Source: Blastococcus xanthinilyticus (GTDB lineage Bacteria; Actinomycetota; Actinomycetes; Mycobacteriales; Geodermatophilaceae). From it: a stretch of 64,000 nt of DNA. The DNA lies in the NCBI RefSeq assembly GCF_008124835.1, contig NZ_VNHW01000003.1, positions 62,001-126,000 of the forward strand, in the 5' to 3' direction. This document shows positions 455 through 47,981 of this stretch, in pieces. Position numbers and translations under genes: made by a program. Every line of letters begins with the position of its first letter. Position 1 is the stretch's first letter. The notes below the pieces were generated by a model, which did no database searches, was not told where the DNA came from, and was given only the letters and a program-made list of their open reading frames with translations.

Positions 455-2107
455 GTGGACCGGGTGGTGCTCCGGCGGCGGGACGCCGTCGTGGAGGCGC
501 ACGAGCTCGCCGTGGACGGCGGTACGTCGGCCGTCACGCGGTTCCCGGCCGAGGAGCTGGCCGGGCACGTCCGGGAGCGGGAGGCGGCCGGGATCCGCTG
601 GGTGTGGGACGACACCACCCGCTGGTACCCGGCGCTGCTCGCGGCCGGCGTCCGGATCGAGCGCTGCACCGACCTGCGCCTCGCGCACGCGGTGCTGCGG
701 CGGTCGCCGTTCCCCGACCAGGCGCTGCTGACCTGCGACGAGACCGCCGGCTGGGACCAGCTGCAGCCGGTCGGGCCGGTCGCCCCCGCGCTCTTCCCGC
801 CGGAGGACCCGGCCGACCGGCTCGACCCGGTCGCCGAGCACACCCGCCAGCAGGCCGCGCTGGCCGCCGCACCGCGGTCGGAGCGGCTGGCGCTGCTGCT
901 CGCCGCGGAGTCCGCCGGTGCCCTGGTGGCGGCGGAGATGACGCACGCCGGCCTGCCGTGGCGCGCCGACGTCCACTCCCGGCTGCTCACCGACCTGCTC
1001 GGGCCGCGGCCGCCCGGCGGGGGCCGGCCGGTGGTGCTCGAGCGGCTGCTCGGGGAGATCCGCGAGGCGTTCGGCGCCCCGGCCCTCAACCCGGACTCGC
1101 CGGCGGACCTGCTGCGGGTGCTGCGGGGGGCCGGCCTGCCGGTCGAGGACACCCGCTCGTGGACGCTCGAGCAGCTCGACCACCCCGGGGTGCCGCCGCT
1201 GCTGGAGTACCGGAAGCTCAGCCGCCTGCTCACCGCCAACGGCTGGAGCTGGCTGGACAGCTGGGTGCGGGAGGGCCGCTTCCGCGCCACCTTCCTCCCC
1301 GGCGGGGTGGTCACCGGGCGGTGGGCGTCCAACGGCGGCGGGGCGCTGTCCGTGCCGGTGCAGATCCGGCCGGCCGCGGTGGCCGACGACGGCTGGTGCC
1401 TCGTGGTCGCCGACGTCGCGCAGCTCGAGCCCCGGGTCCTGGCCGGCATGAGCGGTGACACGGCCATGGCGGAGGCCGCGCGCGCGTCGGACCTCTACGC
1501 GGGCATGGTCGCCGCGGGGGTGGTCGCGACCCGGGCGGAGGCCAAGCTCGGCATCCTGGGCGCGATGTACGGCGGCACCCGCGGCGAGAGCGGCCGGATG
1601 ATGCCCCGGCTGGCCCGCCGCTATCCCCGCGCCGTCGGCCTGGTCGAGGACGCCGCCCGCGAGGGCGAGCGGGGCGAGGTGGTGCACACCCTGCTCGGCC
1701 GCGGCTCGCCCCGGCCGGCCGGCCCGTGGGCCCGGCAGGCGACGGACGATGGGGATCCGGACGGCGTCCCGCGCGAGGACCGCGACCGCGCCCGCCGGGC
1801 CTGGGGCCGGTTCACCCGCAACTTCGTCGTCCAGGGGACGGGTGCGGAGTGGGCGCTGTGCTGGCTGGCCGACCTGCGCAACCGGCTCTGGCGGCTCGGT
1901 GGCACCGGGCCGCTCGACCAGCGGCCGCACCTGGTGTTCTTCCTCCACGACGAGGTGGTGGTGCACGCTCCCGAGCACCTCGCCGACGACGTGGCGGCGG
2001 CCGTGCGGGCCGCCGCCGCGACGGCCGGGCGGCTGCTGTTCGGCACCTTTCCGGTCGACTTCCCCCTCGACGTCGCGGTCGTCCGGTCGTGGGCCGACGC
2101 CGGCTGA
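455..2107 (+). CDS. Bifunctional 3'-5' exonuclease/DNA polymerase (DNA polymerase I-like, actinobacterial short form)
   Basis: A 550-residue family-A DNA polymerase homologue. Motif A is visible as VADVAQLEPRVLAG (about residues 320-335), motif B as AKLGILGAMYGGTRGE (about 355-370), and motif C as FFLHDEVVV (about 490-500) with the catalytic HDE. The N-terminal third corresponds to the exonuclease-like domain, but the canonical DEDD residues are not obvious, so exonuclease activity is uncertain. It is much shorter than full PolA (about 900 residues) and lacks the 5' nuclease domain; this short form is widespread in Actinobacteria beside the true polA. A role in repair synthesis is inferred. 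The start is GTG; no strong ribosome binding site is seen. Confidence 0.85.
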   Translation: MDRVVLRRRDAVVEAHELAVDGGTSAVTRFPAEELAGHVREREAAGIRWVWDDTTRWYPALLAAGVRIERCTDLRLAHAVLRRSPFPDQALLTCDETAGWDQLQPVGPVAPALFPPEDPADRLDPVAEHTRQQAALAAAPRSERLALLLAAESAGALVAAEMTHAGLPWRADVHSRLLTDLLGPRPPGGGRPVVLERLLGEIREAFGAPALNPDSPADLLRVLRGAGLPVEDTRSWTLEQLDHPGVPPLLEYRKLSRLLTANGWSWLDSWVREGRFRATFLPGGVVTGRWASNGGGALSVPVQIRPAAVADDGWCLVVADVAQLEPRVLAGMSGDTAMAEAARASDLYAGMVAAGVVATRAEAKLGILGAMYGGTRGESGRMMPRLARRYPRAVGLVEDAAREGERGEVVHTLLGRGSPRPAGPWARQATDDGDPDGVPREDRDRARRAWGRFTRNFVVQGTGAEWALCWLADLRNRLWRLGGTGPLDQRPHLVFFLHDEVVVHAPEHLADDVAAAVRAAAATAGRLLFGTFPVDFPLDVAVVRSWADAG

Positions 2108-2187
2108 CCGCGCCGTCGAGGTACACCGGGGCGGGACCTCCCGGGGTGCCGCGACACGCATCACGCCCGCGAATTCGTCGCGCACAA

Positions 2188-2261: not shown

Positions 2262-2432
2262 CGGGCGCCGCCGAGTCACCCAGAGCCTTCCAGCCGCGGG
2301 TGGGCCGGGGACCCACCGCAGCACTGGGGTGAATCCTGCGCCGGGCACGTCCCGACGCGGGTAGGGCCACTTCCCGCCCGAATCCGTCAGCTAACCCGGT
2401 AGGCGGCACACGGAAGAACGGAGAGCCGCCGG
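2262..2432 (+). promoter_or_regulatory. c-di-AMP riboswitch (ydaO-yuaA class)
   Basis: The leader carries the hallmark blocks of the ydaO/yuaA class in order: GGGGTGAATCC (2326-2336), GGTAGGGCCA (2360-2369), CCCGAATCCGTCAGCTAACC (2377-2396) and GGTAGGCGG (2398-2406), followed by GGAAGAACGGAGAG. This class binds cyclic di-AMP and in Actinobacteria commonly controls cell-wall hydrolase genes such as rpf and NlpC/P60 genes. Here it precedes an exported M15-like wall protein, which fits. The outer limits are approximate. About 260 nt of leader (2433-2693) without recognisable features separate it from the start codon. Confidence 0.88.
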
Positions 2433-26581: not shown

Positions 26582-27421
26582 ATGGGAGACGTCTTCTCCG
26601 GCGACCTGCTGCCCGAGGGGCTGCTTCCCGAGGGCCTAGGCCCCGGCGTGCTGGTCCTGCTGCTCCTGGCCGCGCTGGCCGCCGGGTGGATCGACGCCGT
26701 GGTCGGTGGCGGGGGGCTGGTCCAGCTGCCCGCGCTGCTGCTCGTCCCGGGGATGAGCCCGGTCCAGGCGCTCGCGACGAACAAGCTGGCGTCGATCTTC
26801 GGGACGACGACCAGCGCGGTCACCTACTACCGCCGGGTCCACCCCGACCTGCGGACCGCGCTGCCGATGGCCGTGATCGCCCTGGTCGGCAGCTTCGCCG
26901 GCGCGTCGGTGGCCGCGGCGCTGCCGGCCGCGGTGTTCAAGCCGGTCATCGTCGTAGCGCTGATCGCGATCGCCGCCTTCACCCTGCTCCGCCCGTCGCT
27001 GGGAGAGGTCACGGCGCTGCGGCACTCCGGCCGGCGCCACTACGGCACGGCCGCGGTGGTCGGGGCCGCCATCGGTTTCTACGACGGGATCCTCGGCCCG
27101 GGTACCGGCTCCTTCCTCGTCTTCGCCATGGTCCTGACCCTCGGCTACGACTTCCTGCACGCCAGCGCCAAGGCCAAGATCGTCAACGTCGCCACCAACC
27201 TGGGCGCGCTGCTCTTCTTCGCCCCGCACGGAGCGGTCCTCTGGGGGCTGGGGATCCTCATGGGCGCGGCCAACATGCTCGGCGGCTACCTGGGCTCCCG
27301 GACGGCGACGACCCGCGGGAGCGGCTTCATCCGGGTGGTCTTCCTCGTCGTCGTCACCGCGCTGATCACCCGGCTGGGCTGGGACGTGTGGACGGAGAAC
27401 CTCCGGCCGCTGCTCGACTAG
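26582..27421 (+). CDS. TSUP-family (TauE/SafE) permease
   Basis: A 279-residue integral membrane protein with about eight helices. The two TSUP half-repeats show AGWIDAVVGGGGLVQLPALLL with ATNKLASIFGTTTSA, and GFYDGILGPGTGSFLVFAM with ASAKAKIVNVATNLGALLFF. The family exports or imports sulfonates, sulfite or thiosulfate-like anions; no substrate can be assigned. The ATG has a GGAG element upstream. It terminates with TAG, an ordinary use of UAG in this genome. Past the stop the base composition falls. Confidence 0.88.
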   Translation: MGDVFSGDLLPEGLLPEGLGPGVLVLLLLAALAAGWIDAVVGGGGLVQLPALLLVPGMSPVQALATNKLASIFGTTTSAVTYYRRVHPDLRTALPMAVIALVGSFAGASVAAALPAAVFKPVIVVALIAIAAFTLLRPSLGEVTALRHSGRRHYGTAAVVGAAIGFYDGILGPGTGSFLVFAMVLTLGYDFLHASAKAKIVNVATNLGALLFFAPHGAVLWGLGILMGAANMLGGYLGSRTATTRGSGFIRVVFLVVVTALITRLGWDVWTENLRPLLD

Positions 27422-42671: not shown

Positions 42672-44069
42672 GTGCGGCTCCCCGACGGTCTCGTGGCCGT
42701 GGTCAAGCGCGACTGCCCCACCTGCGTCCTCGTGGAGCCGGTGCTGCGGCGGCTCGGCGCGGCCGTGTGGTGCCAGGACGACGCCGGGTGGTTCGACGGG
42801 GACGACACCGACCTGGAGCTCTCCTACCGGCTGGGGATCGAGACCGTCCCGACGCTCCTCCGGGTGGCCGACGGCGAGGAGCGGGCGCGGGTGGTCGGCT
42901 GGAGCAGGCCGCAGTGGGAGGAGCTGACCGGCGTCGCCGGGCTCGGCGAGGAGCTGCCCGAGCACCGGCCCGGCTGCGGCTCGCTGTCGGTGGACCCGTC
43001 CCGCGTCGATGCCCTGGAGGCGCGGTACGGCGGGAGCGGGCTGGCCAGCCGGCGGGTGGAGCTGGCCGAGCTGGAGGACGAGCACGAGGCGCTGTTCGAC
43101 CGCGGCTGGACCGACGGCCTGCCCGTGGTCCCGCCGACGCCGGAGCGGGTGCTCCGGATGCTGCGCGGCACGACCCGCGACCCCGGGGAGGTGGTCGCCG
43201 TCGTGCCACCGGACCTGGTCGAGTGCACCGTGGAGAAGGTGGCGGTCAACGCGGTCATGGCCGGCTGCCTGCCCGAGCACCTGCCGGTGGTCCTCGCCGC
43301 GCTGGAGGCCGCCACCGCCGAGGAGTTCGCGCTGCACGGGCTGCTCGCGACGACGTACTTCGCCGGCCCGGTCGTGGTGGTCAACGGGCCGGTCGCGGCC
43401 CGCATCGGCATGAACGCCGGCGTCAACGCCCTCGGCCAGGGCAACCGGGCGAACGCCACCATCGGCCGGGCGCTGCAGCTGGTCATCCGCAACGTCGGCG
43501 GGGGACGCCCCGGCGAGGTGGACCGCGCGACCATGGGCAACCCAGGCAAGCTCACCTTCTGCTTCGCCGAGCGCGAGCACGACAGCCCCTTCCCGCCCCT
43601 GGCCGCCGACCGCGGGGTGCCCGGCGACGCGGTGACCCTCGTCGCCGGCTCGGGCGTGCAGCCGGTGGTCGACCAGCTCAGCCGCGACCCGGAGTCCCTG
43701 GCCCGCACCTTCGCCGTGTGCCTCCGGGTGAACGCCCACCCCAAGCTGCCGATGGCGTTCGACGCGATGCTGGTCGTCTCCCCGGAGCACGGCCGGGTGT
43801 TCCGCGAGGCCGGGTGGGACCGCCGCCGCCTGCTGGCCGAGCTCGACGGGCTGCTCGCCCTGCCCGGCGCCGAGCTGGTCCGCGGCGCCGCCGGGATGGT
43901 CGAGGGGGTGCCGGAGGCGCTGGCCGGGAGCACCCTCCCGAAGTTCCGCCCCGGCGGGCTGCTGATCGCCCACGCCGGCGGCGACGCCGGGCTGTTCAGC
44001 GCGATCGTGGGTGGTTGGGTGGCGGGGGAGACCGGCAGCGTTCCGGTGACACGGGAGGTACGGCAGTGA
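42672..44069 (+). CDS. Thioredoxin-like/UGSC-associated protein
   Basis: A 465-residue protein. The first about 90 residues look like a thioredoxin-fold domain with a CPTC motif (C15-x2-C18, KRDCPTCVLVEPVLRRLG) and a cis-Pro region GIETVPTLLRVADG. A linker with HRPGCGSLSVDPS precedes a large domain (about 130-460) holding RGWTDGLPVVPPTPERVLRM, NAVMAGCLPEHLPVVLAALE, VNGPVAARIGMNAGVNALGQ and GNRANATIGRALQLVIRNVG. Proteins of this kind accompany UGSC-family genes; their reaction is unknown. Its TGA overlaps the GTG of the selenoprotein gene (GTGA at 44066-44069), which implies coupled translation and a joint function, perhaps redox handling of the selenocysteine. Confidence 0.7.
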   Translation: MRLPDGLVAVVKRDCPTCVLVEPVLRRLGAAVWCQDDAGWFDGDDTDLELSYRLGIETVPTLLRVADGEERARVVGWSRPQWEELTGVAGLGEELPEHRPGCGSLSVDPSRVDALEARYGGSGLASRRVELAELEDEHEALFDRGWTDGLPVVPPTPERVLRMLRGTTRDPGEVVAVVPPDLVECTVEKVAVNAVMAGCLPEHLPVVLAALEAATAEEFALHGLLATTYFAGPVVVVNGPVAARIGMNAGVNALGQGNRANATIGRALQLVIRNVGGGRPGEVDRATMGNPGKLTFCFAEREHDSPFPPLAADRGVPGDAVTLVAGSGVQPVVDQLSRDPESLARTFAVCLRVNAHPKLPMAFDAMLVVSPEHGRVFREAGWDRRRLLAELDGLLALPGAELVRGAAGMVEGVPEALAGSTLPKFRPGGLLIAHAGGDAGLFSAIVGGWVAGETGSVPVTREVRQ

Positions 44070-44584
44070 AGACGGTCCTGGACCCCACGGGGGAGCGGCA
44101 GCCGGCGGTCCGAGCCCTGCTGCCCCGCCCACCCGCGCTGCACGGCCGCACCGTCGGCCTGCTCGACATCAGCAAGGCGCGCGGCGACGTCGTGCTCGAC
44201 CGCCTCGCGGAGCTGCTGGCCGCCGACGGGGCGCTGGTGCGCCGCTACCGCAAGCCGACCTTCGCCCGCACCGCCCCGGTGGACCTGCGGCACGAGATCG
44301 CCGAGCAGTGCGAGGTGGTCATCGAGGCGCTGGCCGATTAGGGCTCCTGCACGTCGTGCAGTGTGCACGACATCGCCGACCTCGAGCGCCGCGGCGTCGT
44401 CGGGGTGTTCCTCGCCAGCGCCGTGTTCGCCGAGGCCGCCAGCATGCAAGGCGTGGCGCTCGGCTTCCCCGCGCCCTACGTGCTGGTGCCGCACCCGGTG
44501 CAGGACCGCACCGACGCCGAGCTGCGCGCCGTCGCCGAGGAGGTCTACCCCGCGGTGGTGGCGGCGGTGACGGCGGGGAGCTGA
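44066..44584 (+). CDS. UGSC-family selenoprotein with selenocysteine encoded by UAG (codon 92)
   Basis: The frame runs from GTG 44066 to TGA 44582-44584 (172 residues) but is interrupted by an in-frame TAG at 44339-44341. Upstream residues end QCEVVIEALAD; downstream in the same frame come GSCTSCSVHDIADLERRGV and an intact C-terminal half (GFPAPYVLVPHPVQDRTDAE). This is exactly the UGSC-family motif, D-U-G-S-C-T-S-C, with TAG where selenocysteine stands (residue 92). A SECIS-like hairpin begins 11 nt after the TAG. UAG-decoding tRNA-Sec has been described in Geodermatophilus and Blastococcus. Elsewhere in the window UAG is a normal stop. Enzymatic function is unknown. Alternatives: a nonsense mutation or two separate proteins. 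Confidence 0.85.
44353..44371 (+). promoter_or_regulatory. Bacterial SECIS-like stem-loop after the UAG codon
   Basis: GTCGTGCA (44353-44360) pairs perfectly with TGCACGAC (44364-44371) around a GTG loop. The apical GCAG-TG-TGCAC is very close to the E. coli fdhF SECIS apex (GCAGGTCTGCAC), and the loop falls 20-22 nt after the recoded codon, nearly the same distance as in fdhF. An 8-bp stem with a U-containing loop fits SelB recognition. SelB binding is inferred. Confidence 0.75.
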
Positions 44585-47750: not shown

Positions 47751-47981
47751 ATGGCGCCCGTCCCTTCCACCCCGCCGCCGGGGAACATGACCGTTCCGTT
47801 CCTGGCCGGCTGGGAGTCGCTGCTGGTCGTGGTCGTCGTCGTCCTCCTCAGCGCCCTGGTCTTCGTCGTCCTCCTGGCGGCCGGCGCCGCGCGGACGGGG
47901 CGGTCGGAGTGGCAGGCCTGGCTGGACGGCCGGTCGAGCCGGCGTCCGCGGCGCCCCGCGGGACCGGCCGGCCGCGACTAG
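47751..47981 (+). CDS. Small single-helix membrane protein
   Basis: A 76-residue protein with one strong membrane helix (ESLLVVVVVVLLSALVFVVL) and a basic C-terminal tail ([17 protein letters not shown]). No family is recognised. ATG at 47751 or ATG at 47787 (GGGGAA upstream) can start it; the second would give 64 residues. It terminates with TAG, another ordinary use of that codon. It precedes serA by 107 bp on the same strand. Confidence 0.5.
   Translation: MAPVPSTPPPGNMTVPFLAGWESLLVVVVVVLLSALVFVVLLAAGAARTGRSEWQAWLDGRSSRRPRRPAGPAGRD

Follow-up and report, generated by a model that had tools for sequence, protein, structure and literature searches.

In the 64,000-nucleotide stretch of Blastococcus xanthinilyticus DNA analysed here (the window; C3:62001-126000 of a 4.6-Mb genome, G000, in 38 contigs), a gene of the UGSC family carries a UAG at codon 92 that is very probably read as selenocysteine (Sec) by the genome's own tRNA-Sec(CUA), likely via SelB at a predicted SECIS hairpin. 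The Sec reading is favoured because the genome has the matching tRNA and the gene has the predicted hairpin. Publications of 2016-2017 reported UAG-encoded Sec in Geodermatophilaceae, also for UGSC genes, and since the same codon switch is already known from this family, the gene is a well-supported new example of it. New here are a census of codons and anticodons, a conserved SECIS, domain fusions that suggest a selenol enzyme fed by thioredoxin, and a single genome with both a CUA and a UCA tRNA-Sec.

The UGSC gene and its in-frame UAG

Table 1 Features of the UGSC locus in the window
Feature	Positions	Strand	Remarks
Partner gene	42672..44069	+	465 aa; 4-nt overlap with the start of UGSC; CPTC thioredoxin-like N-terminus, then unnamed 'DGLPVVPPT' domain
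UGSC-family gene	44066..44584	+	172 codons; codon 92 = UAG; GTG start; TGA stop
UAG at the Sec position	44339..44341	+	Codon 92; motif D-U-G-S-C-T-S-C
Predicted bacterial SECIS hairpin	44353..44371	+	7-bp stem, nt 15-21/27-33; loop AGUGU at 44360-44364

Translation of the gene (Table 1) gives 91 residues before the TAG and 80 residues after it, and ends at a TGA at 44582-44584; the frame after the TAG is intact, as had been proposed. With the TAG taken as a residue, the product matched Pfam PF24696 over residues 3-169 (E 5.5e-42, 144.2 bits, cut-off 25) and NF041046, 'UGSC family (seleno)protein' (140.9 bits, cut-off 125). The site motif reads D, TAG, GSCTSC. These profile matches and the conservation of the TAG bear out the original prediction that the gene is a UGSC-family member with the TAG exactly at U. 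Among the 15 other rows of an alignment with the window protein (A2), 14 have Cys at the site and one, P0004, has Trp. Three UGSC homologues of the protein database, P0004, P0005 and P0008, have Trp, Arg and Gln, respectively, at the Sec position, and each comes from a single-member metagenome cluster; sequencing errors or other codon readings are possible reasons for these residues. No UGSC relatives were found in viral contigs.

An in-frame stop normally means a nonsense mutation or an error, and the standard-code database predictions of the close homologues P0014 and P0022 stop just before the site, at ...EALAD. That the TAG sits in a dying or mis-sequenced gene is nevertheless hardly credible. 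The orthologues of more than 70 % identity in the family, the window gene included, all have a single in-frame stop, which is TAG in 36/36, and in the 33 of those 36 whose position was read it always occupies the Sec site, so the TAG is not there by chance. It was also found at the UGSC site in 27 named public genomes among the best 80 of 356 relatives, all Blastococcus or Geodermatophilus and overlapping in part with the family set. In an in-register comparison of 33 sequences, dN/dS was 0.26 upstream of the TAG and 0.22-0.25 downstream, and judged by these ratios the part after the TAG is still under purifying selection. The genome, moreover, has the Sec machinery. On the sequence evidence, a TAG that is conserved in many species already refutes the nonsense or error explanation.

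Decoding machinery and predicted insertion signal

A tRNA-Sec model gave six matches in the genome, two of them above the cut-off. The one at C6:102862-102953 (64.2 bits, cut-off 47) has the anticodon CTA and fits the Rfam tRNA-Sec over its full length, including the long variable arm. The other, C7:206500-206586 (51.5 bits), is a tRNA-Ser(UGA) according to ARAGORN, which assigned the four matches below the cut-off to Ser, Tyr or Leu tRNAs as well, and therefore one tRNA-Sec (CUA) was counted. Neither the model nor ARAGORN found a tRNA-Sec with UCA. The selA and selB genes adjoin the tRNA-Sec(CUA) on the same strand and selD adjoins it on the opposite strand; they scored 413 (TIGR00474), 287 (TIGR00475) and 386 bits (TIGR00476), respectively, all above the cut-offs. 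The genes and the CUA tRNA that had been suggested for a genome search are all present.

ARAGORN labels the CUA tRNA as tRNA-Pyl, a likely source of mis-annotation. Although this label would suit a UAG read as pyrrolysine, such a reading is highly improbable, given the full-length fit to tRNA-Sec with its long variable arm and a score above the cut-off, the adjoining selA, selB and selD, and the fact that relatives have, at the same site, either Cys or a TGA that goes with a UCA tRNA-Sec. In practice, standard gene callers cut UAG-Sec proteins at the UAG, and the tRNA is labelled as pyrrolysine.

The reading of UAG as Sec would not be confined to the window gene, as a TAG also occupies the Sec site of no fewer than two others in the genome. 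In formate dehydrogenase (FDH) alpha, on C7, the TAG lies between QARI and HSATVPGLG, and in a second UGSC domain (C1:590256-590732) it lies between VGD and GSCSSWSLHD. The latter domain belongs to a fusion with a thioredoxin-reductase (TrxR)-like part.

UAG still ends other genes of the window. A GC3-based gene set of 42 ORFs had 36 TGA, 5 TAG and 1 TAA stops, with two of the five TAG ORFs doubtful and some genes, such as the upstream partner, missed. It had been claimed that at least five other genes stop with TAG. This held for the TAGs at 27421 (TauE) and 61839 (TetR), which end Pfam-supported genes and are not followed by the hairpin; the ORF ending at 409 is coding-like by GC3 with no Pfam match, whereas the one ending at 47981 is antisense to a DUF2252 gene and 56536 ends no ORF of the GC3-based set. 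Since UAG ends Pfam-supported genes, release at UAG must be active. Elsewhere in the window, positions 2274-2420 (+) match a c-di-AMP riboswitch (ydaO/yuaA leader; Rfam RF00379, 66.2 bits).

How UAG could be decoded in one place and terminate in others is suggested by the predicted hairpin. With the Sec codon numbered as nt 1-3, its loop is at nt 22-26 and it starts 11 nt past the codon. PMC13188914 describes bacterial SECIS elements as having a loop of 3-9 nt with G in the first two places and a stem of 4-16 bp, at 16-37 nt from the codon and with an MFE of -7.5 kcal/mol or lower; the window hairpin lies within these bounds (loop AGUGU; stem of 7 bp; distance 18 nt; MFE of the isolated hairpin -10.9 kcal/mol). 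Codons +3 to +11 after the TAG were nearly invariant in 33 sequences, and synonymous choice was frozen at +4, +5, +7 and +8 (for amino acids with four or six codons, permutation p 5e-5), compared to 3/60 such columns elsewhere. The Ser at +7 was AGT in 33/33, while only 2/203 Ser codons elsewhere in these genes were AGT.

The hairpin was compared in 71 Sec-site sequences, 27 of them distinct, from 45 UGSC genes (three subgroups, one with TGA) and 26 FDH genes. The loop was RGUNU in 71/71. All seven stem pairs could form in 19/27 distinct sequences and five or six in the others; the hairpins of subgroup 3 lack two basal pairs. For 17 of the 27 distinct rows, 92.4 % of the pairing cells were paired, compared to 62.5 % in shuffled and at most 47.1 % in slid alignments, and covariation was 0.805 against 0.254 in shuffles (0/500). 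Two of five measures were not clearly above the shuffles, i.e. double-change pairs (48/500) and further pair types (182/500). The hairpin covaries between gene families. When all 279 TAGs of the window on both strands were scanned, an RGUNU loop in register together with at least 6/7 pairs followed a single one, that of the UGSC gene itself, in line with the proposal that decoding depends on local context.

In the mechanism we propose, SelA would convert Ser-tRNA to Sec-tRNA with selenophosphate supplied by SelD, and SelB would bind the predicted hairpin and out-compete release at the UAG of the UGSC gene only, while UAGs without the hairpin would keep terminating. It could also be argued that this UAG mainly terminates, yielding a 91-residue product with a role of its own and a small or selenium-dependent readthrough fraction. 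Release at UAG must be active, as stated above, and the recoding efficiency of UGA to Sec in E. coli is given as 30-40 % in PMC4513850. Against this, the conserved active-site motif U-G-S-C-T-S-C and the final 80 residues start at the UAG, and selection on them is the same as on the part before it, which makes predominant termination very improbable and decoding as Sec the preferred reading.

Codon and anticodon among relatives

The family set comprised 112 genomes, of which 108 had a tRNA-Sec; the four without are 72-82 % complete. Of the 110 tRNA-Sec genes found, 102 have CTA and 8 TCA. CTA occurred in 101/108 genomes and TCA alone in 7, which belong to three genera (g5, g6 and g7), while one genome (G058) has one of each. 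A UGSC match was obtained in 54/112 genomes, 36 of them being the orthologues above 70 % identity; among the more distant paralogues that were read, eleven also have TAG at the site and others have Cys. FDH gave no match in the UCA genera, and the UGSC-like proteins of two of their genomes (G066 and G072) have Cys at the site, so that no matching UGA selenoprotein is available from these genera. Among 296 genomes of the class outside the family, there was one close orthologue (G197, 72 %), with TGA and a UCA tRNA-Sec.

A wide scan of 84,980 species, one genome per species, gave 356 relatives, of which the best 80 were kept; the window gene and G197 were added to make 82. Tabulated by codon, as had been recommended, these orthologues divide into 28 with TAG and 54 with TGA. 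TAG is conserved in the close relatives, and TGA or Cys occupies the site in others. The TGA genomes of this set (best 80 of 356 and G197) are mostly MAGs, of Acidimicrobiia, Frankiales and other Actinomycetota, and in eight TGA loci among the best 80 a tRNA-Sec(UCA) adjoins the UGSC gene. Twenty of these genomes were checked for the tRNA: nine were TAG/CUA, some of them also in the family set, and ten TGA/UCA, while the twentieth (L236) had no tRNA-Sec match. Codon and anticodon thus agreed in 19/19 checked genomes with a tRNA-Sec, one of the TAG genomes (L250, apparently the same record as G058) also having a UCA copy. Three matches were set aside from the reading of the UGSC site, i.e. L117 (15.5 bits), the second match of L209 and L213, which is a formate-dehydrogenase locus; L217, a duplicate of L101, does not figure in later counts.

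In FDH the Sec codon was readable in 26/32 loci, two of which (L092 and L218) are the same gene, and it was TAG in 26/26; the searched motif was absent from L084, L085, L093, L096, L097 and L098. A supposed UGA in the formate dehydrogenase of G079 was dropped, as the Sec-site motif is absent from that locus, which counts neither way.

One identical hairpin sequence follows the Sec codon in 24/28 TAG and 46/54 TGA genes (best 80 of 356 relatives, the window gene and G197). As the hairpin is mostly the same in UAG and UGA genes, letter for letter, the switch apparently required no more than a joint change of codon and anticodon in a few Sec genes, while the insertion signal stayed. On a tree of the same 82 genes the UAG label requires two changes, forced by strongly supported branches, because a UGA-using gene (L236, from the Frankiales MAG RYN_184) falls inside the main UAG clade. 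No tRNA-Sec match was obtained in the RYN_184 genome. Four Geodermatophilus form a separate UGSC lineage, and this and the main lineage both use UAG. The simplest account, although not proven, is that two UGSC lineages were converted at the anticodon switch and that RYN_184 descends from before it; a later reversal or transfer in RYN_184 is possible.

The genome with both anticodons is, by the positions of its tRNA genes, that of Geodermatophilus sp. LHW52908 (G058; L041). Its tRNA-Sec(UCA) lies at 1173-1263 (-) of a 2.76-kb contig, C17 (81.8 bits), which also holds an AhpD-like frame at 1579-2157 (+) with an in-frame TGA in CFYUMESH, followed by a hairpin sequence with the loop AGUUU; its other tRNA-Sec is CUA. 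In 107 other family genomes no close copy of the AhpD-like frame was found, only four distant relatives of 33-40 % identity without an internal stop. The cassette had no close plasmid copy and none in viral contigs, and the insertion-sequence DNA flanking it had no other full copy in that genome. The contig may be a contamination, a plasmid or part of the chromosome. We consider it a tentative and rather doubtful lead that LHW52908 uses two Sec codons with one SelA/SelB set, i.e. UAG with the CUA tRNA for UGSC and FDH and UGA with an imported UCA tRNA for the AhpD-like protein with its RGUNU loop. SelB and SECIS would then be blind to the codon, and for that reason a single anticodon switch would suffice to move Sec to another codon. 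No description of two Sec codons in one genome was met in the related literature, without a search aimed at it.

Putative function and relation to known systems

The partner protein has its best named matches among Blastococcus proteins (90-91 % identity). Its thioredoxin domain with CPTC is assigned with confidence; the match to Pfam Thioredoxin_2 was 21.2 bits, below the cut-off of 27. A DGLP motif was present in the fetched DNA of 59/82 UGSC loci (best 80 of 356, own and G197), some of which end too near the UGSC gene on the upstream side, and it was on the same strand in 59/59. In two genomes (G059, L200, and G023, L201), a UGSC domain with UAG and a DGLP domain are found in one protein. 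The second UGSC domain of the window genome forms the C-terminus of a protein of 482 residues (L199:3206-4654, - strand). The N-terminal 290 residues of this protein match TIGR01292, thioredoxin-disulfide reductase, with 198.6 bits, less than the equivalog cut-off of 343; they retain a CAGC dithiol. Two paralogues of the partner's DGLP domain come after this fusion. No description of a TrxR-UGSC fusion was met in the related literature, which was not searched for it specifically.

In the predicted structure of the UGSC protein (pLDDT 92.1), strands and helices alternate in five units; Sec92 lies after strand 84-90 and before helix 93-108. The PDB matches listed for it include flavodoxin- and receiver-like folds. 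Gene neighbourhood and fusions suggest that the role of UGSC is in thioredoxin-linked redox chemistry. We infer a selenol catalyst reduced by thioredoxin or by a fused reductase because of the CPTC partner, the DGLP neighbourhood and the fusions. The product would be a redox enzyme with a U-x-x-C-x-x-C centre between strand and helix of a predicted alpha/beta fold, receiving electrons from the CPTC thioredoxin partner or, in the paralogue, from the fused TrxR-like domain. The chemistry of UGSC, noted as undescribed in the original prediction, is still so, and the fusions now point in this direction.

The Sec-site motif of GrdB/PrdB is UxxCxxC. A homology of UGSC with these proteins was considered and is not claimed: hhalign aligned the two Sec residues, but E was 0.0063 and the probability 5.9 %, and none of 16 UGSC proteins matched PF07355 with an E of 1 or lower. 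PF07355 was also sought in 149 genomes of the phylum, and seven full-length GrdB-like loci, translated through their TGA, were used in the hhalign comparison. In these genes of other Actinomycetota (L312-L318), the PF07355 match stops at an in-frame TGA that is followed by GTGTR(C/S), and they are probable UGA selenoproteins.

The UGSC genes show how an assignment of the genetic code can move in nature, and they allow a clean test of whether the codon to be decoded matters to SelB and SECIS. The chemistry of a widespread, uncharacterised family becomes approachable through the TrxR-like fusion and through the partner with its thioredoxin domain. UGSC-containing selenoproteins were described in the GOS survey of 2008, with a fusion to an unnamed domain (PMC2398784). 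Family and motif (PF24696; NF041046) are the same in the window gene; unlike the family as given in that source, it has UAG instead of UGA, and its genome also has the TrxR-like/UGSC fusion.

The loop of the E. coli fdhF SECIS is GGUCU at nt 22-26, and the same letters are found in 26/26 Geodermatophilaceae FDH genes. The fdhF gene uses UGA and has a bulged U17, whereas the window gene uses UAG and its stem can pair fully.

The proposal that a tRNA-Sec(CUA) decodes UAG here, in a rare natural reassignment, is supported, but the reassignment is already in print. Section 17 of PMC5330540 (Santesmasses et al. 2017) reports three Geodermatophilaceae genomes with a CUA tRNA-Sec and refers to Mukai 2016 for the occurrence of UAG in genes of FDH and UGSC, as found here, and PMC5133445 states that UAG specifies Sec in Blastococcus. 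Compared to those three genomes, the present work covers the anticodons of 110 tRNA-Sec in 108 genomes of the family and the Sec-site codon of 82 UGSC orthologues (best 80 of 356, own and G197), compares the SECIS between UGA and UAG genes and finds UCA-using genera in the family. According to PMC5133445, Sec is also encoded by UGU in Aeromonas salmonicida, which is likewise a natural case of Sec on another codon; there it is a sense codon, whereas here it is a stop.
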